NCBI GenBank assembly: GCA_036940085.1
Contig: JALLBK010000044.1
Location: forward strand, 1 to 64,000
Length of the DNA: 64,000 nucleotides
Reading direction: 5' to 3'
From: Discostella pseudostelligera
Lineage: Eukaryota; Bacillariophyta; Thalassiosirophyceae; Thalassiosirales; Thalassiosiraceae
How positions within the stretch are numbered: position 1 is the first letter of the stretch; each line of letters begins with the position of its first letter. The translations under genes and the position numbers were made by a program. Positions 2,009 to 57,089 of this stretch are shown piece after piece. The notes beneath the pieces were generated by a model. It searched no databases and had not been told where the DNA came from. It worked only from the letters and a program-made list of their open reading frames with translations.

Positions 2009-2135
2009 TGGAGAGGTGGCCCTCGCACCGCTGTTTAAAATTTTCAAGCGCACGGACTCCAAATTTGAAACNTGGAGAGGTGGCCCTCGCACCGCTGTTT
2101 AAAATTTTCAAGCGCACGGACTCCAAATTTGAAAC
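2009..2135. repeat. 63-base perfect direct repeat around a single N (contig-junction artefact)
   Basis: Positions 2009-2071 and 2073-2135 are identical, and the only base between them is the N at 2072. This is what results when two overlapping contig ends are placed side by side without merging. It lies in the 372-base interval between the PRPP synthetase stop and the next ATG (2197), where I see no gene. Removing one copy leaves both neighbouring reading frames untouched. Confidence 0.9.
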
Positions 2136-18064: not shown

Positions 18065-18241
18065 AATCTTCATGACCATGACGATGAAGCCAACCGAGAT
18101 GGAATCCGCCGAGCCTACTACAGCCAACAACAATAACAAAAAGACAGCACCANAATCTTCATGACCATGACGATGAAGCCAACCGAGATGGAATCCGCCG
18201 AGCCTACTACAGCCAACAACAATAACAAAAAGACAGCACCA
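18065..18241. repeat. 88-base perfect direct repeat around a single N (contig-junction artefact)
   Basis: Positions 18065-18152 and 18154-18241 are identical and the N at 18153 is all that separates them. The repeat contains the RRP1 start region, so the N-terminal codons appear twice. Merging the copies leaves one normal start. The same pattern occurs around the N at 2072. Confidence 0.9.
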
Positions 18242-38651: not shown

Positions 38652-38837
38652 GGTTAATGGTGATATGGTAGGGTGAGGTAGGGAGGATTGATGGTGTTAC
38701 TATGAGCGTCCGTCGGCGGAAGTGTGGTTATATTATTATGGGCGTGAAGATGATGATGGTCGAAGTCTGCGGCGCCCGCATACGTGCATCGTTCTATGAA
38801 TTCCTACACAGATAACTTACCGGTTACTTGAGCTTTT

Positions 38838-39089: not shown

Positions 39090-40835
39090 CTACTGCTTCT
39101 TCTTCAAGATCTCGAGACCACCCATGTATGGCCTCAAGACCTCTGGAACAACGACATCACCAGTAGGGGTTTGATAATTCTCCAATACAGCCACAAGTGT
39201 TCTACCCACCGCAAGGCCGCTTCCATTGATCGTATGACAAAATACTGGTTTCGGCTTTTTTGTATTCTTTTTCTTCCCTCCCTTGTTGTCGGCACTCTCC
39301 TCGGCCTTCACCTCAGGACGGTACCTCAATGCCATCCTCCGTGCTTGAAAGTCTCCTGTATTCGAACAAGAACTAATCTCACGATACTCCTGGGTAGATG
39401 GCAACCAGGCTTCCAAATCATAGCAATGTTGCGCACTAAACCCTACATCTCCCGAACACAATCTCATTTTGCGATAGGGTATTTTCAACTCCTCCAAACA
39501 TTCCTCCGCATGTCGTGTCAGCTTGTGATGCTCATCGTCCGATGTTTCCGGTGTTGTGATTTTCACCAACTCCACCTTATAGAATTGATGAGTTCGAATA
39601 AGCCCACGTGTATCACGACCGTAACTTCCCGCCTCGGCACGAAAGCATGGCGTTAATGCACAATAACTAATTGGCAAATCCGACTCCTCCAATATTTGGT
39701 TCGAATGCATGTTCGTTAACGGAACCTCCGCCGTGGGGATTAGGAAGGCATCCTCTCCATTGCACGTGTGTGACTCACGTACAATCTTAAACAAGTCTTC
39801 TTCGAACTTGGGCAGCTGTGACGTCCCCTCTAATGCCGAACGTGAAACAACCAGTGGAGGAGAGACTTCGGTGTATCCCTTCTCGGATGCACGATCGAGG
39901 AAGAAAGAGGAGATAGCACGTTCCAAACGCGCTACTGATCCAGTTAGGCTGACGAAACGTGCCCCCGACATGCTCACGGCGGCCTCGGAATTCCACCCAG
40001 CCAAATTTGTAGCGATATCATCGTGCCACAATGGTTCAAAATCCTCAGTCCATCCCAACTGCTTGGGCAATGCATTCACGTCACCCCATTCACTCACACA
40101 TTGGTTTGCAGAATCGTTATCACCATCGGGTACAATATCATCTAACAAGTTCGGAAGTGATGCCAATAATGCATTCATATTGGATTCAATCTCATTTAAT
40201 GTTGTCTCGATGGCACTGGCCTCGTCACCGGCTTGGGATGCCTGTTCCTTCAGACTAATAATCTCATTGCTCTCGCTCTCACCCTTGTTTTCTCTCATTA
40301 ATTTTCCAACTTGCCCTGACAATTCATTCCGTTTTTGCAATGCATCATCACGTTTTTGGATTAATACAACTCGTTCCGAATTAAGAGTGGCGATGGATTT
40401 GGCAGCGTTCAATGTATCCTCGGATGCACGACGTGCCGATAGATGAGAGAGAACAATGTCGAGATTGTCAGATAGAGAGCGTGCATCGAGGCTTGAGGAT
40501 AGGGAGGCACGGGAGAGACGATTGTTAATGAGTGTTGGCGACGACGTTGCTGGTGCATTTGAGTCAGTGCTGGTGGTGGAGGAATAACGTCGTGATGGAC
40601 GAATGATTGGACTAGTGGTAGATGGTATCATCCTGGAGTAGGACGAGACAAATTTCGTCGTCGCTTTCATGGCCTCGGCCGGCGCTAATGATAATGGTGA
40701 GAGGCGGGCTCGGGATGAAGATGATGATATGACGGCCCTCCTGGACAAAGGCCGCATGTGCTGGAATGCCCGCGTAGTCGTCATGATGGCGAAGGTGGCC
40801 ATCAGCGTAGCGAGATTGAGCCGCTTGAGCGACAT
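39090..40835 (-). CDS. Organellar-type seryl-tRNA synthetase
   Basis: The single exon encodes 581 residues. The enzyme charges tRNA-Ser. The long N-terminal coiled-coil arm (about residues 110-230; QKRDDALQKRNELSGQVGKL) and the class II core are of bacterial/organellar type: GARFVSLTGSVARLERAI, SPPLVVSRSALEGTSQLPKF, LIPTAEVPLTNMHSN, the motif 2 loop CFRAEAGSYGRDTRGLIR, and the motif 3 region NGSGLAVGRTLVAVLENYQ. The leader begins [12 protein letters not shown] and has the plastid-type TRAFQ cleavage motif. Met12 and Met18 could serve as alternative starts for mitochondrial targeting, a scheme known in diatoms for dual-targeted synthetases. Its first 77 coding bases and 68 bases of leader are identical to those of the prolyl-tRNA synthetase gene. 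Confidence 0.93.
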   Translation of the reverse strand: MSLKRLNLATLMATFAIMTTTRAFQHMRPLSRRAVISSSSSRARLSPLSLAPAEAMKATTKFVSSYSRMIPSTTSPIIRPSRRYSSTTSTDSNAPATSSPTLINNRLSRASLSSSLDARSLSDNLDIVLSHLSARRASEDTLNAAKSIATLNSERVVLIQKRDDALQKRNELSGQVGKLMRENKGESESNEIISLKEQASQAGDEASAIETTLNEIESNMNALLASLPNLLDDIVPDGDNDSANQCVSEWGDVNALPKQLGWTEDFEPLWHDDIATNLAGWNSEAAVSMSGARFVSLTGSVARLERAISSFFLDRASEKGYTEVSPPLVVSRSALEGTSQLPKFEEDLFKIVRESHTCNGEDAFLIPTAEVPLTNMHSNQILEESDLPISYCALTPCFRAEAGSYGRDTRGLIRTHQFYKVELVKITTPETSDDEHHKLTRHAEECLEELKIPYRKMRLCSGDVGFSAQHCYDLEAWLPSTQEYREISSCSNTGDFQARRMALRYRPEVKAEESADNKGGKKKNTKKPKPVFCHTINGSGLAVGRTLVAVLENYQTPTGDVVVPEVLRPYMGGLEILKKKQ

Positions 40836-40903
40836 GTGGATAGCGACGAGCTACTCTAGAGCTAGATAGAGGTAGAAGGGACCGCCTTCTAGGATAGTAG
40901 CGG
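40759..40903 (-). repeat. 145-base block shared with the ProRS gene (copy 1: SerRS leader and presequence)
   Basis: By eye this block is identical, base for base, to 51413-51557. It covers the first 77 coding bases of SerRS (40759-40835) and 68 bases upstream. Weaker similarity continues about 24 bases into the coding region (to about 40735) and then stops. The upstream remainder of the gap (40904-41305) holds nothing I can name. Confidence 0.93.
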
Positions 40904-41305
40904 TATGGTAGATGTTAGCGTGTAGCGTCGGCGGACGGCGGCGGAATGAAGTGAGATAGGGTATCTATCGTTTTCGTCGTCGTCGTCATCATCGTTGTCG
41001 ATGGGTTGGCTTGAGGGTTATCGTATCGTACGATACGAGGCTGACGCACAAAATGTGTTTGGAGAATTCCCACGTAGACAAGATACCATAAATTTTAAAA
41101 TCGCCAAAGAGCGCGAGATAGAGCCCCGCCAGACATCAAAACCGTCCACCTCCGTCTCCTCACCATCTCCATCCACCTTCCACCCACTGACTTCTACTAC
41201 TACTAGATACTACTACTTGTCACATCTCACTTCGCCTCCTTGCCTGCTGACACCAACATCGTCTCCTCGACGCCGACGAGGGGCACCAAATCGATCAATA
41301 CCAGA

Positions 41306-42123
41306 ATGGCAAACCGGGCATTCCATATCGCTACCAAAGGCTCCTTCAACTACTACGGCGTTCGTCGATGCAGTAGTCATGTTCCTTCCGCTGTTGGGTG
41401 GTGCGAACATCATCATCACTCCAAGATCAATAATTCTCATCCAGCACGCCCTATTACTCCCGCAACACCAATCATATCCCACTTGAATTATTGTCATCAA
41501 TCTCAATCATTACGAGAAATATGTCGTAATACCGCTTTGGTGCATAGAAGATTGTTCAGTGGTACGACATCAGACAAGAGTGGCAATGTTGATGCAGCTG
41601 CTAGTAGAAGTGGCAATATCGATCGAAGCAAGTTTACCCACGAGGTGAAAATCGTAATGCCCAACCTTGATGATAATGTCAAAGGTGAGTATGTGTGCGC
41701 TCGATGATGTGCTTTTACTTCGTCACGTTGATGCAACCTTCGACAATGATCACAGTGTCTTAAATGAATTTTTCTTTCATATGGGTAACCGTCAATCACT
41801 ATTCAAAGGTGTGATCGAAAAGTGGTACAAGAAAGAAGGAGATATAATTAAGAAAGATGAAGTCATTTGTGATATTCGGACCGAGGTAAGAATAATGCTC
41901 AAATCATATTGCATCGAATCAAATTGCACCATGTGGGAAATGATTAATCTCCCTTTAGCTATTCACCTTTGGGATGTTAACAGATGATGACTTTGATTCC
42001 ATCATGGGAGTGATACATGTTCCAGAGGGTTCGGATCCAGTGGAGCATGGGACAATTATTTGCACGACATTTAATGAGGGACGGGATGGAGAGGACGAGA
42101 CGAAAGATCATGATGACGCGTGA
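41306..42123 (+). CDS. Mitochondrial lipoyl-domain-like protein lacking the lipoyl lysine; join(41306..41684,41809..41885,41959..42123)
   Basis: Three exons (phases 1 and 0; GTGAGT and GTAAGA donors) give 206 residues. The first 40 residues are basic and lack acidic residues (ANRAFHIATKGSFNYYGVRR), fitting a mitochondrial presequence. Residues 118-195 are a stand-alone biotinyl/lipoyl domain: VKIVMPNLDDNVKGVIEKWY, KKEGDIIKKDEVICDIRTEL, FTFGMLTDDDFDSIMGVIHV, PEGSDPVEHGTIICTTFN. In pyruvate dehydrogenase E2 the tip reads ETDKAT; here it reads RTELFT, so the modified lysine is replaced by leucine, right at the second splice junction. No catalytic or E3-binding domain follows. It may be a structural or regulatory relative of E2/E3BP. 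The start chosen is the first ATG. Confidence 0.77.
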
Positions 42124-42351
42124 CGGCTCTCACACATCCATTCAGTGATGAATTAGTTCTGCCAGGGCTTCGATGATAGCAACAACTTGGGCATTTCATA
42201 ACTTCTCATCTTCAAAGATATCTTTCGCCAAATCACATCTAATCTTAGTGCTGGACTTATGTCTAGCCGTTCTCGTCAACTGATTTGAATATCTAGAGCT
42301 GGTCGCACACACCCGCTTTCCCTTTTGTCAAACTTCAAAACCACAAATCGA

Positions 42352-44222
42352 TCAAAAGCTCGGAGGATTCATTACATCCCATGCATGCACATCCGGAGTA
42401 CTCTGCTGTCGCGCATTTTCGGCCGCCTCTTGATGTTTCACGGGCATGGAAGTTACCGGCTCGTCTTGGCCATCCGACATCATCTCTTCCTTACTCAATA
42501 GGAGGTATCGTTTCTCCGTGCAACCATAGGCCAGTGGAGTCAATTCAATCACTGTATTCAATGGGATGTTCACATATGGAGCCTGCTCACGAGGAAGACC
42601 CATAAAGTATGCATAGAGTAACCTATGAATGCCTTGGTGGCCTAGGAAAGATTAATTGAGATAAGGTATGATGAGTTGACGATGTAGACACACGACAGAA
42701 CCAAACAGTGAAATACTTACCGACAATAAGAATGGGCTCACGAGTCCGTTCAATGTCGAGAATAATGGGTTCAAGACGCAGAGTGACATCCATGTATGAT
42801 TCACCTGAATAAAGAGCCCAAAAATAAGTACAAATATACATGACGTCGACAACAGCAATAATTACCTCTCGGCTTACCTCTTGGGTATCGATACGTCAAC
42901 TTATCTTCTTGACGTCTGGCAAATTCTTCAGGGTACTTCTCCTCAATCTCCTTGTACGTCAGTCCATCGCAAACACCCGCGTAGAGCTCATCCAGATTCC
43001 TTCGCGCCCTCCCCTGAAACTGAATCCACTCCACTACATCTCCATTATCCCATTTGAACGCGGGTATTTTTGTATGCTTGATGTATTGAGCTGTCTCCTT
43101 TGTACGTCGAAGTGTCGATGTCCAAAGTCTCGCCGGTTGGGGAGTACGCTTCTCTTCTCCGGTTTCTTCATCCTTCTCCACTTTCATCCCAACATGATTG
43201 TGAGCAAAGTCGGCGAGACGACGTGCAAACTTCCTCCCGGCATCGGTGAGACCAGAATCACCACCGATTTTACCAAGTAGGTTGTAGTCCGACTGACCAT
43301 GACGAGTAAGGTAGAATACACGAGGGAGTGTGTGAAGGTTCATGACAAAGTGAACCACCTGGATAGAATGAAGAAATGCAAAATACGAATAAGAGTTGTT
43401 TCAAACCAGAAAAAACATTAAGAGACATATAGTATCCAACCAACCTTCTGAGGCAAATATCCTCTAGCATTGTGAACAATAAACGTTTGGAAGTTCTTAA
43501 TCTTAATATAGGATCCATCTCGTTCGTCGACTGTTTCGTAGATATCCATGTAATTCTCCCTTCGCATTTTAACGTCCTTGTAGGCATCCTCGTGATCGAA
43601 GTTCCTGTACCCAGGGGTGTTCATTTTTATCGTGCGTATATTATGCTCAATTAGCTGTGGATAGTGAAAATAATTTGGTAGAGATAAGGGTTAGGTGGTT
43701 GTCGGTAAATAATGACAAATATGCATTATGTCAGTGGATTTGATTACTCACCTCTTCATTGTCACAGATAGTCTCAATCACGATGACCTTGCACTTTAAG
43801 AACGCCACCGCTTCTCTAATCCGAGTCCTCCGTTCACGTGTGCAATTTGTTGAATCCAAAATCCCCACACGCACACCATCCTGCTTCATGAAATCAATAA
43901 GTTCTCCCAAAGCGGCATCGCATGCCAGCTCGCGTTGGTTCGATGATGCATGGGTGAAGAAGTCTGTAGGTGACTTGACACCAAACAAACTACGACGGTA
44001 GTCGCCGACGTTTAGTAACTTAGATTCCACAGCAAGGAAGAAGGAGATGTACCGTGCGATACGGTTGGCAATGTGTGTTTTCCCCGTCGCGGGTAAGCCA
44101 CACATGATAATGATGAGCTTTTCGGTGGCAGTGCAGTCGCCACCGACGACTTCGAGCGGTGTGGCATTCTCACCCTCGGGGATGACGTGAGGCGTGGGGT
44201 TGTAGTCGGCTGGTTGCGACAT
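42352..44222 (-). CDS. PFKFB: Bifunctional 6-phosphofructo-2-kinase/fructose-2,6-bisphosphatase; complement(join(42352..42641,42721..42804,42878..43358,43445..43654,43752..44222))
   Basis: The enzyme makes and destroys fructose 2,6-bisphosphate, the switch between glycolysis and gluconeogenesis. Five exons (phases 0, 0, 1, 1 in order; donor/acceptor pairs all GT-AG) give 511 residues. The kinase half has the P-loop GLPATGKT at residues 42-49 and continues with NVGDYRRSLFG and DSTNCTRERRTRIRE. The phosphatase half has the RHG motif near residues 246-248 (FYLTRHGQSDYNLLGKIGGD), the substrate loop (ARLWTSTLRRTKETAQYIK), the acid CDGLTYKEIEEKYPEEFARR, and the second His in ILIVGHQGIHRLLYAYFMG (about residue 417). 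Both active sites look intact. The N terminus is short and contains no transit peptide, so it should be cytosolic. Confidence 0.93.
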
Positions 44223-44674
44223 TGTTATTGTTTGATCAAGAGGATTATTATGTAACAATGAAAACTACTTTGACATAGGAATGTAGTTCACTTTGCTCCG
44301 AAGAACTGCTGCATGCCGATGATGCTTCAAGTGCTTCTCGCCGTCGCGGATCTCATGGTGCACCGCTGCCGATGCCACCGCGCAGCGGTGGGGATGGGGG
44401 CGGGCTGCTCTTTCTTTCTGATAACGAGATGACTTCAATTAGCGAACATTGGTACAGCCTCATCGTTGAAATATTCGCCAAAACACTTCAATCCAAGATC
44501 TTTCGTAGAGGGTGGTGGGATGGACAGAAGTCTCCACGTGGAGGGAGGAATTGAGATCGGGCGGGAGCGAGGAGGTCGAGGTCGAATAGATTAGAGTGAG
44601 TGATCAGTGAACAATGATGGAAGCACAAGCAATCAATCAGGACATTATGTTATCTCTCCAACAATTGATATTGT
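44223..44674. other. Intergenic region upstream of PFKFB
   Basis: These 452 bases hold the PFKFB promoter and the 3' end of the kinesin gene. A CACGTG hexamer within TCCACGTGGA is at 44535-44540. No gene is seen. Confidence 0.35.
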
Positions 44675-47166
44675 TCAAACTCTCTCTTTCCTTTCCTTCA
44701 TCAGCACAGCTCGTTCCTTCCGCTGAATTGCTGTCACCCTATCATTCTCCTTTCTCAGCAGATCAAATAACTTCTGCGCCTGCTCTTTATCCCTATCTTC
44801 AAAGAGCTGAGCTCGCATTTGGAGGACGCTCATCTTCATTAATGTCTTTCCATCGTGCTTCTTTGCAAGCTGAACTTTATGCATCTTATTGTCAACGAGG
44901 AACTTTTGAAGATGTTTATGATTCCATGCAGTGGGAGGTAAAAGCACCGGTCTCGTCTCCTGTCGGTGTGACGAAACAGAATGTGCCTTTTCTTCTTTGA
45001 TTTGATCATCCACGCCAACGATGCTTGCTACGGTCTTTAGTGTATCCATGGTGTGTTCAGTATCAGTTGCATTGGGAGCAACACAAGCAATTACACAAAG
45101 GCGTGCTCCAGCTCTTTCAAAACTTTCTTTCAATATCCTTGTGAGGTTGCTAGATCGAAATGGAATGTGTGCACTCTTTTTTGCTCTTGCACGGATGCAT
45201 TCCTTGAGTGCGTAAAGAGACGCGTTAATCTCGGCACTTTCCTTCTGTCGTTCGCTATAATCGATAATGCATGTGAGCATGATGTTCTTGATTGACAATG
45301 AATGCAAAAAATAGCGACCACTTACCTGCTGTGATACAAGCTGTCGTGGCTCCTCTCGCTACCGGCGCAGTCTATCAACGTCAACAAGCCTCTCTTTGAA
45401 CCTGGATGTTTACCCTTGATCTGTATTTGGCACACGGCATGTGATCGGCTGGATACGCCATTCTTATCAGTGGCCTCCGTCGCACGCCTTCCTTTCGCAA
45501 GCAATATTTGTCCAAGCAATTCCTCTGGAGATGTCACTTCAAGCGACACCGCATTCAAAAGTTGGACCGATCCATCTTCGCTGTCTAAAAGCTTGACCTC
45601 TCCGGACTCTTTCACGAGCAAGTCTCTGCATTCTTTGCTACCACATAGTTCGACAAATTGCATTGTTACATGTGGTCTATCCGCTTGACGTTTCCCCGCA
45701 AACATGGATTCAATGGCTTTGAATATACCATGAGACGTTCTAGTTTCAATACCAGACATAGTATGACTTTTGCCACATCCGGTTTGACCATACATGAGAA
45801 TTGTGGCTATCCCTTGATTGGCAGCATCCAATACGAGAGGCTCTGCAATGTGTCTGTAGATATCATCATCACGAGCGTGTTCGTCAAAGGCTGCTGTGAC
45901 AGGATAACTAATTGGTTTCATGAGCATTTGCTTCATGTCCGCATGCATGACACAGTTGTGCACGATGGTAACATCGTGTGCTCTTTCGTTCGTATTGTCA
46001 ATCGATATAATGTCATAATCACCACGATCGAGCTCGTAGTCAAACATTGGTCGCTTACGGACAGCAATTGACACACCATTCATTCCTCGATCTTGAATTT
46101 GACTTCCAACCTTCTCCGAGTGATTCGATCCATTGTTCAAGTAGGAATGTCGTTGGCGGTACTGGGTGATATCAGCCTTGAACGAATCTCCGAAACGCAA
46201 TCGAGCGGTTCGTTTATCTAAATTCCTCCTCCCATCAACTTTGTTCGAAGCCGACATTGCATCTTTGAGCCGCTGATTCCGTTGTTGTTCCTCACGCTGC
46301 ACCGCCAGTGCCGCTGGCTTCTTTGTTATTGCTGTTGGAGGAGCTGATGCCGACGCCATTCCTACTGATCGAGAGTTTATTTTTGTTGGCATATCCCATT
46401 CATGCAATGATTTTGAAGTGCCGCCAGAGTTAATTGGTGCAGTAGAAGTTCGGCGTGGAGGTACATCTCCCGAACTATTCCGCCGGGAACCACCACATGC
46501 TACCTTGGCTGTTGCCGATGGTCCATTGGTATGCAATCTATCCGCTAAGCCACCATTAATTCTCTTCGTTGCAATCACCGCCGCCTTTTCTTTCACAGAT
46601 ATTTGGTTGGGATGCAATACAATTTCAGGAAGAACCTGCGTCTTCGTCGGTGGAGAGTTGAGATAGCTGTTGGGGATTGGCGTCGAATCATAGACCTGTT
46701 CCATCTCTGCCATGATGGCTTTAGTGTCTGGCGATGCCTCCTTCTCGTCTAATGTAAATGATTCCGAGTACTGATTGTCATCATCATCGCTAGAGCTGTC
46801 GACTAAGCAAGATTCGAACGAATAACTCGATGCCGATGACTCTCTAGAATGTTCTGCCTCTGAGATTGCAGACTGGACGCATTTTTTTGATGAGGACAAT
46901 GCTGGGTTGTATTTCATGTCACCCCCCTTATGCATTATCGAAGTCTTCATTTGAACCCCAGTACCATTCTTTCTCAAACCCTCCATCGCCTTTTTCGTCA
47001 CTGATGACAAGTATTCAGAATCGTTCCCAATATCGCTGCAATTATTTTCTTTTCCAATTGACGAGGTCGGATGATGCACAACCTTGCAATTATTCGTAGC
47101 AGATTTGTTTGATTTCTGCTGATACAAACGCAAACTCATCCGGATCTTGCTGTTGAAGAGTGGCAT
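44675..47166 (-). CDS. Kinesin-13 type motor with C-terminal SAM-like domain; complement(join(44675..45254,45326..47166))
   Basis: Two exons join in phase 2 across a 71-base intron (GTAAGT...TATAG) to give 806 residues. Residues 1-340 are disordered and basic, ending in a neck-like helix (PAALAVQREEQQRNQRLKDA). The internal motor spans about residues 350-700: GVSIAVRKRPMFDYELDRGD, the P-loop GQTGCGKSHTM near residue 460, switch I region NGVSSRSHAV, switch II LIDCAGSERS, and the join SSERQKESAEINASLYALKE. These are kinesin-13 (MCAK/KIF2) features; such motors depolymerise microtubules in spindles and flagella. Residues about 735-800 form a SAM-like domain (WNHKHLQKFLVDNKMHKVQL, then GKTLMKMSVLQMRAQLFEDR). 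The catalytic P-loop Thr is replaced by Ser (GKS), a conservative change. Confidence 0.9.
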
Positions 47167-47843
47167 GAGACTTCGGAAGGCAATATCAATGGTGCAATGG
47201 AATTAGCTGCCATGGGTCATGGACGAGGCAGAACAGTGCTTCTTCCTTCGACCGAGGAGAGACGAGTTTTTCTCCCGTTTTCAATTAAATTATGATATTG
47301 TAACCAAGAAAAATTGCACACCATGGTGAGAGGTGAGGGAGGATTGTTCCCATTTCCAATAATTGCCGCCACCGGCCACCAGATCATCATGGCCTCGGTG
47401 GACAGCCCGCATCACGTATCAGTTACCAGCTCCCACCGGCTCCAACTGATGCCACCCGAAGCTCATCGGTATAGTGGTAGAATGTGCTTTCAATGCCCTA
47501 CGCAACATCATGGTCAGCATAGATCAGCATAATCAATCCCCGACGCCGACGGCAGAGTTGGTTTGGAGTTGAATTTGAATCAAGATATGAAGTCGATTTC
47601 CTACTTACTTGTAGTCTACAGAGGAATTTATTTTTGCTTTTGGCGGGAGCGGAAGACGGGCTCGTTTGTCGGCTTTTGTCCGGCTTGTTCTTGTGGTTCC
47701 CGTCGCCGTCATGGTCTATGAGCCCGTTAGATTAGGTTCTACATTAAAGGTGTATCGGGCACGAATCGTCATTGTTCATGAGTTCATCGGCATTGTCCGT
47801 TGTCCACACCTCCTCCAAACAGCAGTGCAATCATCATTTCATC
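47167..47843. promoter_or_regulatory. Divergent promoter region with one E2F-like site
   Basis: TTTTGGCGGGAGC occurs at 47638-47650 (core 47642-47649), about 200 bases before the WD40 start. A phrase resembling a tRNA D-arm (GGTATAGTGGTAGAATG near 47468) has no T-arm and is dismissed. No gene is supported in this region. Confidence 0.4.
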
Positions 47844-49205
47844 ATGGATCTCCTCGGCGACATTGGTCATGCCGATCAACTCACCAGTACTCGCGAAGAA
47901 AACAAGGTCCTCCTCGCCAAAGTGAAGGAATTGAATTTCCGTATTCATGAATTAAAGGCGGAGAATGCGGCGTTGAAAGCCGAGGTGGAGATGTACCGCG
48001 AAGACTACTCGAAATCATCATCTTCTTCGAGACGCACTAGTGGTCCGGATAGTTACCATACTGGTGACGAAAGCAAGGAGTATCTCGTGGACAATGACAA
48101 TGACGTTGGTGATGATTTTGTCACATCCGGTAATGGAGTATACCCCTCCGACGCGGCAGTGACCTTGCCACACATTCACACCGGCAATCCATTATGCTGC
48201 TCTCTCCACCCCGATGATTCTCTTCTTGCTACTGGAGGTGCTGATTCAAATCTTAAACTATGTCGTTGGGGTTTGGCATTAGTACCAGGGGATGAAGCAT
48301 CAAGTAATACCGTGGCCAATTCCATTACGATTTCGTGTGGTGCACCAGTCATTTGTTGTGCATTTGCCCAAGTCAATAAGGGTAGGACATTGCCCGTGGT
48401 GGCTGCGGGATGTATGGATGGATCTGTCAAGGTGGTATATTGTGGAATAGAGTCGGATAGTACTATGGATCGTATCTTGGAGTCGAATGGTGATGATGTT
48501 GGTGGCATTAAGCATTCCAAGTATGTGAAAACACTTTGTTGGTCACCCACTGAACCAATTCTTGCATCGGCTTCTGCCGATGGGACTGTTCAATTGACAC
48601 GCATTGAAAATGTCAATAGTGAAGCTGCGACTGTCACTCTTGAAACAGTTTCTTCGATGCATTTTGATGAAGCTATCGAAGCCATGTGTTACTTGAACAA
48701 CGGTGACACTCTCTGCTGTTACGTTCGAGGAAATTCATTCTTGACTTGCTTCGATTTGAAGAATAATTCAAAACGGAGCAAGATGTGGCTGAATGGTGGA
48801 TCGGTCGGCACGGGATGCTTTGATGACCACGTGAGTTTTGCAGTGTTGTCACTATTGCCATCTCCCGATGGAAGGTACCTCGCCGCGGCCACGGATACAT
48901 CGCGAAATATTATCATGGACATTAAAACAAGTCGCATCGTTAAGAATTTGTATGGGCACAAGAATGATTCCTTCAGCACTCCCAAAATCGCCTGGAGTAG
49001 CAATATGCAGTACCTATATGGCAATAGTCAAGATGAAAATTGCATTTGTGTTTGGGACATTGCATCGGCAACCATTGTGAATCGGCTCGAGGAGGAAAGT
49101 GGTCATACCGGTTATGTGAGAGATATTTACAGCAGTAGTACGTCTGATACGGTTGTTTCTGTCTCGTTTGACAAGACGGCGAAACTTTGGCTTCGTGACA
49201 TGTGA
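47844..49205 (+). CDS. WD40-repeat protein with N-terminal coiled coil
   Basis: A single exon encodes 453 residues from the ATG at 47844. Residues 10-55 form a coiled coil (ENKVLLAKVKELNFRIHELK, then AENAALKAEVEMY). WD40 repeats follow: ICCSLHPDDSLLATGGADSN-type LCCSLHPDDSLLATGGAD, VIPV-like CCAFAQVNKGRTLPVVAAG, YVKTLCWSPTEPILASASAD, SLLPSPDGRYLAAATD, YGNSQDENCICVWDIASA and SGHTGYVRDIYSSSTSDT, ending VSVSFDKTAKLWLRDM. I count about seven blades of one propeller. The specific orthologue is not certain; such proteins scaffold complexes. An in-frame upstream ATG at 47778 would add 22 residues, but the coiled coil starts naturally at the chosen one. Confidence 0.85.
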   Translation: MDLLGDIGHADQLTSTREENKVLLAKVKELNFRIHELKAENAALKAEVEMYREDYSKSSSSSRRTSGPDSYHTGDESKEYLVDNDNDVGDDFVTSGNGVYPSDAAVTLPHIHTGNPLCCSLHPDDSLLATGGADSNLKLCRWGLALVPGDEASSNTVANSITISCGAPVICCAFAQVNKGRTLPVVAAGCMDGSVKVVYCGIESDSTMDRILESNGDDVGGIKHSKYVKTLCWSPTEPILASASADGTVQLTRIENVNSEAATVTLETVSSMHFDEAIEAMCYLNNGDTLCCYVRGNSFLTCFDLKNNSKRSKMWLNGGSVGTGCFDDHVSFAVLSLLPSPDGRYLAAATDTSRNIIMDIKTSRIVKNLYGHKNDSFSTPKIAWSSNMQYLYGNSQDENCICVWDIASATIVNRLEEESGHTGYVRDIYSSSTSDTVVSVSFDKTAKLWLRDM

Positions 49206-49318
49206 AATGTGATGTGGGTAAATCTTCAGTGTAGTACAAATAATAGCTTGAGGTTTAGAGTTGCTTTGGCAATGATATGATCTGTAACAAAAGCAAACTC
49301 CGCAGACTATTGAATAGC

Positions 49319-51489
49319 TTAGAATGCACGCCCAAACAATGCCATGTGAGTGGCGTCCTCCCCGCTGTAAAAGCATTTTTTGCCCTCTGCCATACCGGCA
49401 TTATTGACATCTATCGGGTAGCATCGAATAGTAGCCTTACATTCCTCCTTTATTTTTTCTTCGTTCGCGGCATCGCACTTCCAAGGCACCAAGTATAGAC
49501 CAGGTCCGTCGTACTCACTTGCTTCGTCCTTCTCGAGGGCTACCTTCATCTCATCATACGTCGCCATTACGTTAATACCCGCTGCAAGGCGCTCCTTAGC
49601 CGATTCAAGGAGGAACTCTTGCATGTCCTCCAACCCCTTTGTAGCCGTAGTGGCCACCTCATCAAGGGAGACGGTCGTTTTGCCCTCAGATCCAACACGG
49701 TATTTGAATACGCAAACTCCACCCGCGACATCACGTGGTCCGAGCTCAATACGCAATGGCACTCCTTTCCTTTCCCACTCAAAGTATTTGGCACCGTTAC
49801 GAACATAGTCACGATCGTCTACCTTCACTTTAAGACCGGCACCCTTCAGATCAGCCACTAACTTGTCCAAAGTATTGTCAAGTGCAATCTTTCCCGCTTC
49901 ATCATTCTTTTTTGGTGGGATGGGCACCACGACCACTTGAACAGGTGCCACACGAGGAGGAAGAACAAGTCCAGCGTCATCGGAGTGAGTCATGATTAAC
50001 GCACCAATCAGACGTGTCGATACACCCCACGACGTCCCCCAAACCACCTGCTGTTGACCCTCCGTATCCTGATACGTCACATCAAACGCCTTCCCAAAAC
50101 TCTGTCCTAGAAAATGTGACGTCCCACTCTGTAATGCCCATCCATTCTGCATAAGTGCCTCAATAGTAAATGTCTCCTCGGCACCCGCAAACCGTTCTGA
50201 TGGACTTTTGGCTCCCTTGATTACTGGCATCGCGAGGAGTTTCTCGCACATATCGGCGTATTGATGCATCATCTCCTTCGAATCCGCAAGCGCGCCCTCA
50301 GCTGAAGCGTGGGCGGTATGACCCTCTTGCCAAAGGAATTCGGAGGTGCGGAGAAATGGACGGGTACGCATTTCCCATCGCATGACGTTGGCCCATTGAT
50401 TGACTTTAAGGGGTAGATCACTAAAATGATCAAACAGAAAGTCCAGTTAAAAGCACACTACATGAGAGAGAGCTCAAAGGCAAGCAAGGAGTAAAAAAGT
50501 ATGCATTTCACTACTCACCGATGACTCACAATCCACTTCTTAAACATACTCCATATCATAGTCTCACTCGTCGGTCGTATAATCAACGGATCTTCCAACT
50601 CTGCTTCCGGATCAGCCATCAATCCTCCCTTCTCACTCTTATCGGTAGTCAATCGATGATGTGTCACCACAGCACACTCCTTGGCAAAACCATCCACATG
50701 CTCAGCCTCCTTACTTAGAAAACTCTGTGGAATTAATAGTGGAAAGTAAGCATTTTCGGCACCATGTTCTTTTATCCTCGCATCGAGATTGGTACGTATT
50801 TGATCCCATAGGGACATACCCCATGGTTTAATTACCATACAGCCACGGACTGGAGAGGTTTCGGCAAGGTCGCAGATGCGTACAATGTCGTTGTACCACT
50901 TGGAATAGTTGGTAGATCGAGGTGTGATGTAGTCGGATTCGACATCGTCTGATGATGTGCTTTCTTCTGGTGATTGTGTTTGTTTCTTCTGACCTCCTCC
51001 CTTCTCCTTTTGAGTGTTTGTAGTTGCTGGATTCAATTGCGCCTTTAATTCCATAAGTTCAGCCACATGCGGTGCGAGTTCTTCTTTGGATATGCTCTTC
51101 TCTTTGAGACTACGTATCTCATCGCCTTTATTTTTTATTTTGGTTTCGAGTTCGTCGGAGAGAGTGTCGGTAGAGGAGGATGTTTGAGATAGGAGCCGCG
51201 TAGTGAGTGAAGGGTGATGATTGAACATTGTTCGTTTTGTGGCGATGCGAGATGTGCTGCTCCTGCTACTGATGCCACCAAGTATACCCGACATTGACAC
51301 CGACGATGACGATGACGACGACAACGACGATGGTGACGACACACATGTGACGTCGTAATCGTAATTGTTTGCGCCAGTCCAAAGTGCAGCCCTCCTGGAC
51401 ACAGGTCGCAACTGCTGGAATGCCCGCGTAGTCGTCATGATGGCGAAGGTGGCCATCAGCGTAGCGAGATTGAGCCGCTTGAGCGACAT
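49319..51489 (-). CDS. Prolyl-tRNA synthetase with organelle presequence; complement(join(49319..50420,50519..51489))
   Basis: Two exons join in phase 2 across a 98-base intron (GTGAGT...TTTTAG) giving Arg in [20 protein letters not shown]; the protein has 690 residues. The class II core has [20 protein letters not shown] [40 protein letters not shown] (motif 2) and [20 protein letters not shown] (motif 3), then the anticodon-binding domain [12 protein letters not shown]. The C terminus ends in the aromatic FGRAF of the eukaryote/archaeal-type ProRS. The leader begins [12 protein letters not shown] and ends TRAFQQLRP, nearly the same as in SerRS. Mature regions of the two enzymes are unrelated beyond class II folds. 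The enzyme therefore probably serves plastid and/or mitochondrion. Confidence 0.93.
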
Positions 51490-51557
51490 GTGGATAGCGA
51501 CGAGCTACTCTAGAGCTAGATAGAGGTAGAAGGGACCGCCTTCTAGGATAGTAGCGG
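51413..51557 (-). repeat. 145-base block shared with the SerRS gene (copy 2: ProRS leader and presequence)
   Basis: Identical to 40759-40903 as far as can be read by eye. It covers the first 77 coding bases (51413-51489) and 68 upstream bases. Beyond both ends the sequences soon diverge: TATGG follows in SerRS where CGGCG follows in ProRS. Confidence 0.93.
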
Positions 51558-51648
51558 CGGCGTTAGCGGTAGCGGGGGTGTGCCATCGGATGTCGGCGGA
51601 AGTGAGAGTGAATGAAGAGAGGAGATGGTGCGTCATGAGCAATTCATC

Positions 51649-51782: not shown

Positions 51783-51907
51783 AGCGGGCGGAACCATTCA
51801 TTTTTGGCGACGGCGAAGATGACGGCCAAACAATCCGTGCCTTGCTTACAACTTCCGACAATAGTATCTAGGAGTATGAGTAATAGAATGTCTACCAGAG
51901 ATAAATA

Positions 51908-54156
51908 ATGAACATCATCGTCCACTATAACAAGTCTGCCATTGAAGTCTCGTCGGTGGCAGACGGCAGGGTAGGAGATCGAGACTCGTGGGCTAAATTG
52001 ACGCAACGATTCGTCGAGCAATCTTTAATACATCCCCCGCAATTATTGATATTGTTGGCGTCGCTCTCAACATCGTCGTTATCAAATAATCATTCATATG
52101 ATCCCATAGAAAGAAAGAGCAGAGATTTTGATAGATATTTATTTAGATTTGGTGATGGCTACGCCACCATGATTCAAACGATATGGGGCAAAGCTGGTGG
52201 CAGCAATAGAAGGATAATCCACAAAACTGATGGTGGCGGTGACAAAGGCGAGAGAGAGATGATAGAGGCAAATATCACATTGAACCCACGAGCTGGCGGA
52301 GATACTAGAAACAACTCGTCGTCGAAAATATTACAGCAACAATGTCACCCATCGGCGATGATTCCGATACCCAAGCAAAACAATGATGATGGTGAAGGTG
52401 AAGCAGGATCATCGGGAGCAATTCATGTAGATTTGATTATCGAAATGGTTGGTTTTGCAGAGGCACAACAGCAAAAGCAACATCAACGCAATCGGAGAAG
52501 GATGAGCATTAGAGATAGTAGAGGAGATGGAAGTGAAGATACCACAACATTTCCCATGACGCAAACACCCTTTCCAATCGACGATGCCAAAATGAACTTA
52601 TTGTCTGTGTGGGAACATCCAATGTTTAAGGGTGTGGTAGATCATTTTACCTTGGAACGGTATAGTCTTGTAAGTGCCAATTCAAGAGTTACTGCAGTAG
52701 GCGCAGAAGGATATGGATTAGGAGAAGGTGGTGGAACCCTACACTCAAACAACAATGTTGCAGAGCTTGCTACCATTGTTGCTGAGGCTCCTTCATCTGC
52801 GGCACTTCTCGAAACGACGACGGAACCCAATTCTCCAAGCAATCACAAGATGATGACACGAAAGAAGTTGTCGTTGGAACAGGAGACAGACACGCCGTCA
52901 TCTATAAAGCGAATACAGAATGCTTCCCAACGTCCACTCAATGGATTTATTATGTTTCGTGACGAGTTTCGCCCTATACTCCTTGCGCGTCATCCTGGAA
53001 TATCGATTACTAAGTTGGTACGTTTACAATCGCAATTTGATCGTTGCATTGTATCTGCTTGGGAGTGCATCTCACTCATCTGTTTCGTGTTCCACTATAA
53101 TCCATGATGGTATTATTTCCTCCTCACAGGCAAAGTTAGTTGGTAAGGAGTATCGAGCATTTTCGGACGATCGGCGGCGGAGGTACATCGATGATGCAAG
53201 GTTGTCAATTACTAGGTACGACGACACTAATGACGAAGAGGAATTCGAGGAGGAGCTAGACGATGGGAATGCAGACAGAAGTGTTGATTCGGATATTGGT
53301 GAGAATCGGCAGAAGAATAAACCGAAACGTCCACTCAATGGTTATTTTTTATTTGCCTGTGAGATACGAGACCAAGTCAGGGCTGCCAATCCTCATTTGA
53401 CGGGCTCCAAAATTGTAAGTGTTATTGTGTTTGCACATGGTGTTTGCTTTGCGATGCTCGTGTCTACTGTCTCTAATGCCACACTATTTCACTCTTTAGA
53501 TGTGTAAGATCGCCGAAGCGTACAATGCGCTGGACAGCAATGCAAAAAAATGGTACGAGGCCACGGGCCGTAATGCCTTTGCCAACTATAAGGAAGAATT
53601 CGGTAAGGATGTGATGAAACTAGGACCGCGATACAAGGGCAACGTGGTTGGAAAGGAACAGAAGAAGCAATTTGGTATCGTTAGCGATGAGAGTACGGTC
53701 GAGACAAGTGTCGGTGATCGCAGGAGATATAGAGATATTGTGTCAGACGTTCCGGCCAGTCCTGCCGATGGTCTACCAACTGGTTGGACGATGCGCGTCA
53801 TCCGCCGCTCGGGTAAATCTAACTGGGTCAAACACGATAAATATTGGTACTCTCCAGTCCAGTCGTACAGATTCCTATCCATGACGAAGATAGAACAATA
53901 TTTAGAAAGGTTGGAAGAGGTTGGCGGTGACGAGGTGATGGCGTATAAATTATGCAAACTCAATGACAGAAAGAGGAAGAATACGGATGCAGCCGATATT
54001 GTTGTGTATGACAGAAAGAAAGCAAAGAGGAGCAAGAGGGCGAGTAGAAAGAAAAAGATAGTTGTTGAAATGGATGAGGATGCGGATGTCAATGAGAGCG
54101 AGGAGGATGAGATGACCGACGACCGAAGCCTGGGTATAACTGTCTATGCGGTTTGA
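51908..54156 (+). CDS. Two-HMG-box protein with MBD-like domain, copy 1; join(51908..53017,53130..53414,53500..54156)
   Basis: Three phase-0 exons give 683 residues. An N-terminal domain of about 240 residues is shared with the neighbour and not recognised (IIVHYNKSAIEVSS, YLFRFGDGYATMIQTIW, FPMTQTPFPIDD, MFKGVVDHFTLER). HMG box 1 (about residues 345-405) reads QRPLNGFIMFRDEFRPILLA, then AKLVGKEYRAFSDDRRRRYI. Box 2 (about residues 440-505) reads PKRPLNGYFLFACEIRDQVR, then MCKIAEAYNALDSNAKKWYE. Residues 555-615 resemble a methyl-CpG-binding domain: GLPTGWTMRVIRRSGKSNWV, DKYWYSPVQSYRFLSMTK. The tail is acidic and basic by turns. HMG boxes bend DNA, and an MBD could recognise methylated CpG, so a chromatin role is likely. 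Introns split both boxes at the same place. Confidence 0.87.
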
Positions 54157-54759
54157 AGACTTTGACATTCATTCTGCCAACCGTCAGCTACCGTCCGGTA
54201 GATCTTCATGGCTTTTGGTGGACGAAGTACTAGTACATGATAGCGGCATAGAACGACGATGATGTCATACAAAAGTAAACCAATGCTGCCTACATCTATC
54301 AACTTAATTGATGTTCGAACAAGACATGAATGCACAATCCAGCCTCCGCCTAACAATGGAGCGAATTTCCTCGATGCATAGGAGTAAGTAGGTAATATTG
54401 TTCAATCACCGACGTAAGTGCCGGAGAATGGTGATGGAGGATGGGTGAGTGGTACGATAGTTAGACAGGTGGATGGATTGGATATTGTTATGGCGCGGCA
54501 ATAGTTGTAAAACACATTTAAACCTTAAGTGACAGACGAAAGATAGAGTATCGTATTGCGATTAAAAAAGGGGGAATATGGCGGGAAGAAGAGGTTGCCG
54601 ATATTGCGGCGAATTTTGCACCAGATGGCACATCATGCATGGAATGACCACCATGGCGTATTATTATGGCATGCTGTTGCCATTGCCACTTGCCACTTGC
54701 CGCTTGCCGCTTCCGACAGCTACTATCTACCACTATCTGAACCGATTCACTACTGAAAA
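54157..54759. promoter_or_regulatory. Region between the twin HMG genes with one GGCGGGAA element
   Basis: GGCGGGAA is at 54580-54587, preceded by ATAT, 172 bases before the ATG of copy 2. A CCACTTGCC/GCTTGCC stammer follows near 54686-54713. Open frames on the minus strand are not accepted. Confidence 0.4.
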
Positions 54760-57089
54760 ATGATCCTCGTCGTCCACTATAACAAGTATGCCATTGAAGT
54801 CTCGTCGACGGCTGGCGGGGTAGAAGATGGAGACTCTTGGGGCCAACTAGCGCAACGATTCGTCGAGCGATCTTTAATGCATCCCCCTCAACTGTTGCCA
54901 TTGCTGACATCGCTCTCATCATTGGCAAATAATCATTCTACTGGTCCCATCAAAAGCAAGAATAGCGATGGCGTTAGATATTTATTTAGATTTGGTGATG
55001 GCTACGCCACCATGATTCAAGTCATATGGGGCAATACCAGCCACAATGATGGTAATGGTGACTGCGGGGGAGAGATGATCGAGGCGAACATCTCATTTAA
55101 ACCGCGAGCGGGCAATAAACTACAACACCAATGCCACCCATCGGCGAAGGTTCCAACACCCGATTCAATTGAGGGATCATCTAGCCTTCATGTAGATTTG
55201 ATTGTCGAAGTGGTTGGGTTTGCGGGGGAACAACAACGAAATGGGGGAAAGAAGTCCAAGGGAGGTAGCAGTGGAGGTATCACAACTTTTCCCATGACGC
55301 AAACGCCATTTCCAATCGACGATACCAAACAGAATTTATTATGTTTGCGGGAACATCCTAAGTTCAAGGGTGTGGTGGATCATTATACCTTGGAGCGTTG
55401 GAATGGAGCCAGTGGCGATTCAGCAGCAGCAGCAGTTGCAGGAGGAACCCTCCCCACAAACAATGTCGAATCAAAGTCTACCTCCAGCAAAGCATCTCAC
55501 GCGACGTCAAATACGGAAGTGACACAGATGACTCATTCGACTGCAGCAATTCTCGAAACGGATAATTTGCCAAAAAAGAATAAAAGGGAGAAAAGGAAGA
55601 AGTCGGCGTCGACGGAGCAGGAGACCGACTCGAACAATATTGTTGACTCTACTCCGCAGGAAAAGAATGGCCCTCCTCCCAAACCTCATCGCAATGGGTT
55701 CATGATGTTTAACGCTGAGGTTCGTCCCAGAATTCTTGCGCAACATCCCAATTTGTTGGTAACCGAGTTGGTACGTATCACTTCTGAATCTACTTTCATC
55801 AAACTCAATTTCATTGTGAATTAGAACGTTGCATGTATTCACCTGTATTTATTTCTTCCTACGATCCGTGATGTCCCACAGGCAAAGAAAGTTGGTGAAG
55901 AGTATCGAGCATTGACAGAAGAACGACGACAGAAGTATATCGATGACGCAAGGTTGGCAATACTAAAGTACAAGGAGGAGCATCCGGAAGTGGAATTGAA
56001 TGCCTCGACGAAGAGCAAGAAAAAGACTAAGGAGGATGCAAACAAGAAGTCCTCCGTGATGCCGCCGACACCAAAACCTCTGCCGCCCCTCCCACCACTT
56101 CCGGATTCCGATGATGACACTAGTGATGAGGAAGACTCCGAGGAGAAGCGAGATACGGGGAACAAAAACAACAGTGTTGGTTTGGATAACGGTGGGAATG
56201 AGCAAAAGAACAAACCGAAACGTCCACTGAATGCATATTTGCTCTATTCCAATGAAGTACGAAATCAAGTCAGGGCAGCCAATCCTGATGCGACCGCCGC
56301 CGAAATTGTAAGTCCTTTGACGAAGACAGCGCGAGCATGACGCATTTCTGATTCACATTGCTTTGATTTGTTCGGGTTTGATATATCTGTTGTCTCTTGC
56401 TTCACGTCATCTTTGGACCTGATTGATTTCTTTTTACTCTTTAGATGTGTAAAATTGCTGAAGCATACCAGGCGCTGGACGACGGTACAAAACAATGGTA
56501 CAAGTCCGCGTCCGAGAGCGCACGCGCCAAGTACAAGGAAGAATACGGTGAAGATGCAATGAAATTAGGACCGCGCTCCAAAGGCAAGGTTGATAAAAAG
56601 GAAAAGAAGAAGCAAGCTGATAACAAGGAAAGGGAGAAGCAATCTAATGCCAAGAGTGGCGGTAGCGATGTTGACGATAGTACCGTCGAAACACACGGCA
56701 AGATAGATTTTGCGTCGGAATTCCCTGAGAATCCTGCCAATGGTCTGCCAACCGGTTGGATGATACGTGTGGCACCCCGCCCGAATAAACCCAGCCAAAA
56801 AGATAAGTACTGGTACTCTCCTGTCCAGTCGTACAAATTCCCATCCATACCGCAAGTAAAACGATTTCTTGAAATGCTGAAAGAGACGGACGGTGATGAG
56901 AAGAAGGCGTATAAGTTGTTGAACAAGAGGAAGAGCGTGGATGCAACTGACAATACTGATGACAGTAAAAAGGCGAAGAAGAAGAAAAAGAAAACTAAAA
57001 AGGTTGCCGTCGAAAAGACAACCGATGAGAATGAGGATGGCAGCGAGAGTGAGGTGGATGACGGGATGCCGGATGCTTGGGGTTGTTAA
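54760..57089 (+). CDS. Two-HMG-box protein with MBD-like domain, copy 2; join(54760..55770,55882..56307,56445..57089)
   Basis: A tandem paralogue of the gene before it: 693 residues, the same three-exon plan and the same intron phases. The N-terminal domain matches closely (VVHYNKYAIEVSS, YLFRFGDGYATMIQVIW, TTFPMTQTPFPIDD). HMG box 1 lies at about residues 312-370 (PKPHRNGFMMFNAEVRPRIL, then AKKVGEEYRALTEERRQKYI), and box 2 at about residues 452-520 (KPKRPLNAYLLYSNEVRNQV, MCKIAEAYQALDDGTKQWYK). The MBD-like domain is at about residues 578-640 (GLPTGWMIRVAPRPNKPSQK, DKYWYSPVQSYKFPSIPQVK). Between the boxes there is a Pro-rich and acidic linker longer than in copy 1. Probably nuclear; the two copies may have split roles. 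Confidence 0.87.

Follow-up and report, generated by a model that had tools for sequence, protein, structure and literature searches.

Apparent transfer of a targeting leader from a prolyl-tRNA synthetase gene to a neighbouring seryl-tRNA synthetase gene in the diatom Discostella pseudostelligera

In the genome of the diatom Discostella pseudostelligera, two genes coding for aminoacyl-tRNA synthetases of different specificity begin with the same stretch of DNA. The genes encode a seryl-tRNA synthetase (SerRS) and a prolyl-tRNA synthetase (ProRS), which both appear to be organellar, and are located on the first 64,000 nucleotides of contig JALLBK010000044.1 (assembly GCA_036940085.1, forward strand), referred to as the window below. 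The best explanation, which we regard as probable, is that at least 169 bp of the 5′ end of the organellar ProRS gene were copied at the DNA level onto the neighbouring organellar SerRS gene on the same strand, where they replaced the signal peptide of SerRS.

A leader shared by two unrelated synthetase genes

The segments 40759-40903 (SerRS) and 51413-51557 (ProRS), both read on the minus strand, were aligned and are identical at all 145 of 145 bases. The E-value of this match (4.5e-70) excludes chance. The two copies lie 10,654 bp apart, measured from start to start. The ATG starts at base 69 of this block in both genes. The block therefore comprises 68 bases of leader sequence before the start codon and 77 bases of coding sequence.

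Downstream of the block, the two genes can be aligned over a further 24 bp with four substitutions, located at bases 146, 147, 152 and 156 as counted from the 5′ end of the block. The tail reaches a score of 34, which was matched by none of 500 shuffles, and together with the block it gives 169 bp that are alignable at 98%. The likeness ends at base 170, corresponding to about codon 34, and the sequences are unrelated from there. Upstream, the identity breaks off immediately at the edge of the block. The best gapped match between the 300-bp upstream flanks is a 25-column motif with a score of 26, which was equalled by 4 of 500 shuffles and represents a CACTTCCGCCGAC-like motif, so that homology upstream of the block was rejected. 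The same presequence is thus found on two unrelated mature enzymes, as SerRS and ProRS share 145 bp and then differ. A first-pass annotation of the window had recognized the identical 145 bases by eye, had divided them into 68 leader and 77 coding bases and had described a weaker likeness up to about codon 34; the alignment confirms each of these observations.

The assembly searched for further copies comprises 23,041,147 bp in 963 contigs and is possibly incomplete. No third copy of the block was found in it, either by DNA or by the 35-residue peptide, in a search scoring the best candidates only. The genome-wide search for copies that had been proposed in the first-pass annotation hence returned just the two known places in 23.0 Mb, and a repeat family was rejected on this basis. 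In 237,026 bases of the assembly (nine whole or partial contigs), no non-tandem repeat of at least 60 bp with at least 95% identity was found besides the leader pair. Likewise, stretches of 12.0, 18.0 and 17.0 kb of the window showed no other match of at least 95% when compared to the whole assembly, a comparison in which repeats internal to the query are not listed.

Origin of the leader

The best named protein matches of both synthetases come from diatoms of the order Thalassiosirales. Relatives of the ProRS carry a leader homologous to that of the window, like T. profunda (RLGLVALMAALAMTRAFQLLPAARRAAL) and the closer proteins P0244, P0245, P0246, and P0247. The relatives of SerRS for which complete models exist have an unrelated leader (e.g., MLSAAAAMISSRSGGIRVATAFS). 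Because the homologous leader is found in ProRS orthologues and an unrelated one in SerRS orthologues, the direction of the copy is taken to be from ProRS to SerRS. The question of which gene had the leader first, raised in the first-pass annotation, is answered by the proteins of these relatives, which point to ProRS as the donor.

This was further analyzed using sequence profiles. A profile of the ProRS leader, built from 26 leaders with the ProRS of the window excluded, gave 34.8 bits for the window ProRS and 33.3 bits for the window SerRS, whereas no more than 2.7 bits were obtained with any of 120 other SerRS models. The donor can therefore be recognized from its relatives, as is expected of a copied presequence. 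A profile built from 36 SerRS leaders gave -4.1 bits for the window SerRS. Furthermore, the alignment of a longer profile of the SerRS N-terminus (30 sequences) with the window SerRS begins no earlier than residue 56, at model position 27, which directly follows the AF motif. Judged by these comparisons, the 5′ end of ProRS was copied onto SerRS, and the native SerRS signal peptide is no longer recognizable.

In the proposed course of events, the 68 bp before the ATG and about 34 codons would have been copied from ProRS to SerRS, presumably by recombination. The copied piece would have been joined to SerRS in frame and would have displaced its own signal peptide. This agrees with the earlier proposal of one leader that was copied over about 10.6 kb and fused in frame to a second synthetase. 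The accompanying claim that the copy provided organelle import at once is not supported, since the Thalassiosirales SerRS orthologues already possess a signal-peptide-like start with an AF motif and the recipient was thus apparently not a gene lacking an earlier signal. Because the relatives of SerRS already have plastid-type leaders, the event seems to be the swap of an existing signal and not a first gain of import.

Several points weigh against this interpretation. A late start, which would hide any leader, is common among the 120 SerRS models, and four of the 36 leaders in the SerRS-leader profile (P0026, P0028, P0036, and P0037) were cut at the wrong motif. With the same profile, the ProRS of some other diatoms reach up to 13.7 bits, which indicates a weak background likeness among signal peptides. 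In addition, the nearest SerRS relatives by score, P0004 (88%) and P0005 (86%), begin at the equivalent of the methionine M56, and the nearest by identity, P0006 (97%), begins inside the enzyme. Some ProRS models likewise begin at a later methionine (P0248 and P0250), and for this reason the late-starting models P0004, P0005, and P0006 speak neither for nor against a leader in these relatives. Finally, the interpretation is based on the assembled sequence of a single assembly.

In favour of the proposed transfer, sharing of a leader between SerRS and ProRS was found in none of the six other species for which both proteins were available (136 to 910 of 1000 shuffles were as good). In viral contigs, the search for ProRS relatives produced six pattern matches, none of them a relative, and 26 bases of the leader had no match. 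A search of genome contigs for the DNA of a near relative kept 80 loci, all of which carry bacterial titles.

Age of the copy and alternative explanations

The linkage of the two genes in other diatoms was judged solely from the records of the hit tables, including locus tags. The same contig carries both SerRS and ProRS in T. profunda (ACHAXT_000734, _000726), in Cyclotella atomus (ACHAWO_003353, _003351), and in T. pseudonana. The two genes are apparently on different contigs in C. cryptica and Nitzschia inconspicua, and the short contigs of C. cf. meneghiniana and T. exigua are little informative in this respect. As the genes share a contig in several relatives, their neighbourhood is probably older than the copy. 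Linked genes on the same strand would also form a natural setting for ectopic conversion.

Of 25 residues in the ProRS leader of the window, 4 are different in P0246 and 5 in P0244, with a core that agrees at 135 of 138 positions in both cases. Compared to P0245 and P0247, four substitutions and additional gaps were found; for P0247, the value of 103 of 138 core residues comes from a position-by-position count that does not allow for gaps, and it was not used. Between the ProRS and SerRS leaders of the window, none of the 25 residues differs. The two copies within the genome are thus closer to each other than orthologues are (0 against 4 to 5 of 25), a comparison that applies to the ProRS side only. 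It follows from these counts that the copied part is younger than the split from P0244-P0247 or was homogenized later, in line with the earlier suggestion of a very recent copy or gene conversion.

The position of the substitutions bears on this question. All four fall into the last 24 of the 169 bp, and a run of at least 145 identical bases occurs in 0.16% of trials under random placement, with the reservation that the 145-bp boundary was picked after the data had been seen. This one-sided spread hints at an older copy that was re-homogenized later. Three readings of the age remain, namely an older copy followed by a conversion of 145 bp, a single recent copy whose junction changed quickly, and the merging of near-identical copies by the assembler. 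The first of them is a more specific form of the proposed transfer from ProRS to SerRS and is possible, if doubtful: the leader copy would be old in the lineage, and its first 145 bp would have been re-homogenized by ectopic conversion, which the 3′ tail escaped. Apart from the confinement of the substitutions, it is favoured by leader residues specific to the window ProRS that are common to the window SerRS and not to the ProRS of the relatives, as well as by the linkage of the two genes on the same strand. Nevertheless, the boundary was chosen post hoc, the junction may simply evolve faster, near-identical copies may have been merged during assembly, and the SerRS leaders of the relatives give no comparison. 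Extending this thought, and as a rather unlikely speculation, the two linked and unrelated synthetase genes could share a targeting cassette, consisting of the 5′ untranslated region (5′UTR) and the plastid signal, which repeated conversion keeps identical; the delivery of the two enzymes, and perhaps their expression, would then evolve in concert.

It is improbable that the block was retained for regulation, i.e., for a control of both genes by the 5′UTR with the signal peptide as a passenger. Although 68 of the 145 identical bp are untranslated, no Rfam family was found within the block and its predicted fold is unremarkable (z = -0.94), and an RNA element was rejected for these reasons. Outside the block, in a CGT-rich region at 40931-40993, an Rfam match to mir-598 was obtained with 25.5 bits compared to a gathering score of 69, which is probably due to chance.

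An artefact, in which the assembler either placed the block before SerRS or made two diverged copies identical, is a quite improbable explanation. A match of 145 bp has a length which short-read assemblers can merge, and the same assembly contains exact duplicates around a single N at positions 2072 and 18153. But there is no N near either copy of the leader, the two are separated by 10.6 kb, the one in SerRS carries its own diverged in-frame tail, and the native SerRS leader is absent. Moreover, merging could make an identity too perfect, but it could not produce a common origin. The duplicates at the two Ns are 63 and 88 bp long (window 2009-2135 and 18065-18241) and probably represent unmerged contig ends; they indicate that the joins of this assembly are not always clean. 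On contig C200, the 72-bp stretches 17342-17413 and 17415-17486 look alike and are separated by one base.

Finally, a transfer in the reverse direction, with SerRS as donor and ProRS as recipient, is favoured by nothing except the symmetry of the identity and is highly improbable, as this leader type was found in relatives of ProRS and not in those relatives of SerRS that have complete models.

Predicted targeting of the two enzymes

The shared leader contains a hydrophobic signal-peptide core near the N-terminus, with a hydropathy of 2.06 for the best 11 residues. A phenylalanine follows the presumed cleavage site between TRA and FQ, as read by eye from both translations. With its basic start, the hydrophobic core, this TRA/FQ site and an arginine-rich stretch, the peptide looks like a bipartite plastid signal of diatoms. 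The copied signal would direct both enzymes to the plastid, and plastid import of both is probably its present function.

Each gene has kept a second methionine of its own downstream of the shared part. M56 of SerRS is followed by 35 residues with 6 lysines or arginines and no aspartate or glutamate, and the first 35 residues from M66 of ProRS include 5 lysines or arginines and likewise no acidic residue. Starts at M56 and M66, reached by an alternative start of transcription or translation, would yield isoforms that are probably mitochondrial, as the second methionine and the basic stretch suggest.

For two diatoms, Gile et al. (2015; PMC4494062) give proRS2 and serRS2 as plastid/mitochondrion enzymes, and they describe a pattern in which a signal peptide and an aromatic residue are followed by a next methionine with a stronger mitochondrial prediction. 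SerRS and ProRS of the window appear to fit this pattern with the hydrophobic core followed by M56 and M66. Beside the window SerRS, one other SerRS was found in the assembly (contig C464, 36% identical to it). Beside the window ProRS, there is one other ProRS (C459, 42% identical) and a short broken piece on C833. There is therefore a single non-cytosolic gene for each enzyme, as expected for dual-targeted synthetases, within an assembly that may be incomplete. The earlier assumption that both enzymes serve the same organelles and that diatoms dual-target such enzymes is consistent with the organellar appearance of both proteins and with proRS2 and serRS2 as reported in the accessible text of PMC4494062.

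Gene structures and surroundings

The positions of the features are listed in Table 1. ProRS consists of two exons around a 98-bp intron, which is absent from the first-pass annotation. The open reading frames (ORFs) between SerRS and ProRS match a histidine phosphatase, a 6-phosphofructo-2-kinase, a kinesin, and a WD40 protein.

Table 1. Features of the SerRS and ProRS genes in the window.
Feature	Position	Strand	Basis
SerRS, single ORF, 581 amino acids	39090..40835	-	ORF; SerRS domains
68-bp 5′ leader before SerRS, apparently copied from ProRS	40836..40903	-	identity with ProRS leader
First 77 coding bases of SerRS, apparently copied from ProRS	40759..40835	-	identity; ProRS-leader profile 33.3 bits on window SerRS
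Tail of the SerRS copy, 24 bp, diverged	40735..40758	-	4 substitutions; tail score compared to shuffles
Second methionine of SerRS (M56) and basic, acid-free stretch	40566..40670	-	native SerRS sequence; SerRS N-terminal profile aligns from residue 56; putative mitochondrial presequence
ProRS 5′ leader, putative donor copy, 68 bp	51490..51557	-	identical to 40836-40903
First 77 coding bases of ProRS, putative signal peptide and start of transit peptide	51413..51489	-	identical to 40759-40835; ProRS orthologues have homologous leaders
ProRS segment corresponding to the diverged 24-bp tail	51389..51412	-	4 substitutions compared to 40735-40758
Second methionine of ProRS (M66) and basic, acid-free stretch	51169..51294	-	putative mitochondrial presequence
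ProRS exon 1	50519..51489	-	ORF, GT donor at 50518; WHEP domain
ProRS intron, 98 bp, GT-AG	50421..50518	-	spliced frame restored; exon 2 match begins at 50422
ProRS exon 2	49319..50420	-	ORF and homology match

The broken ProRS piece on C833 is a copy of the 3′ coding end (window 49344-49486 compared to C833:5221-5358; loci L013, L096, and L103). It is identical at 127 of 146 aligned positions, including gaps, and contains an internal stop. A further region, C333:12792-13100 (L012), matches residues 59-161 of ProRS with 46%, including the WHEP domain, and perhaps belongs to another synthetase.

Next to ProRS, a gene region is duplicated in tandem (window 51904-53565 and 54756-56510) with 75-86% identity and a spacing of about 2.8 kb. 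Its first ORF has a sub-threshold match to the HMG-box. The CACTTCCGCCGAC-like motif was found upstream of genes (window 38712-38724, 51592-51604, and others) and is perhaps a core-promoter element. With up to two mismatches, it occurs six times in the window compared to 1.13 expected matches, a number reached in none of 100 shuffles.

Comparison to known systems

Plant presequences that arose from duplicated signals include those of rice rps11 from atp2, Arabidopsis sdh3 from hsp70, and carrot rps10 from hsp22 (PMC2631504, citing Kadowaki et al., 1996). As in these cases, so far as the available text describes them, the targeting presequence of one nuclear gene was apparently copied before an unrelated gene. 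However, the plant recipients in that account were genes fresh from the mitochondrion which needed a first signal, whereas SerRS orthologues already have a plastid-type signal, which seems to have been replaced in the window. A further difference to the cases presented there is that the 5′UTR was moved as well and that donor and recipient are linked.

The accessible part of PMC3017844 mentions exon shuffling from plastid-targeted genes as a source of transit peptides, and recombination or exon shuffling is named as a source of mitochondrial presequences in that of PMC6198282. The present case resembles the acquisition of signals for complex plastids, as far as it is presented in these texts, in that a plastid signal was taken from another gene. 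Unlike exon shuffling as outlined there, the SerRS junction is without an intron, and untranslated leader and coding part seem to have moved as one piece within one exon. Single organellar copies, a predicted signal peptide with a presumed aromatic residue at position +1 and a second methionine are shared with serRS2 and proRS2 of Gile et al. (2015; PMC4494062), whose accessible text contains no mention of one leader common to two synthetases. The literature search, which leaves out most subscription papers and includes others in part, turned up neither a leader common to SerRS and ProRS nor the conversion of a plastid signal. Presequence copying is a known route; unusual here are the replacement of an existing plastid signal, the transfer of the 5′UTR together with the signal, and the linkage of donor and recipient.

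It is generally assumed that recombination spreads plastid targeting signals from gene to gene, but after divergence it is seldom possible to tell which gene gave the signal, which received it and where the copied piece began and ended. In the present case, ProRS can be read as the donor and SerRS as the recipient, and the piece has a sharp 5′ edge, located 68 bp upstream of the ATG, and a 3′ edge at about codon 34. In the one assembly analyzed, the apparent swap of the signal from ProRS to SerRS is clear in these respects, and the delivery of the enzymes would follow from the predicted signals. This suggests that targeting signals can be swapped between genes whose products are already targeted. 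The gene pair furthermore offers a test case for the question of whether two methionine starts divide the delivery of one enzyme between plastid and mitochondrion.

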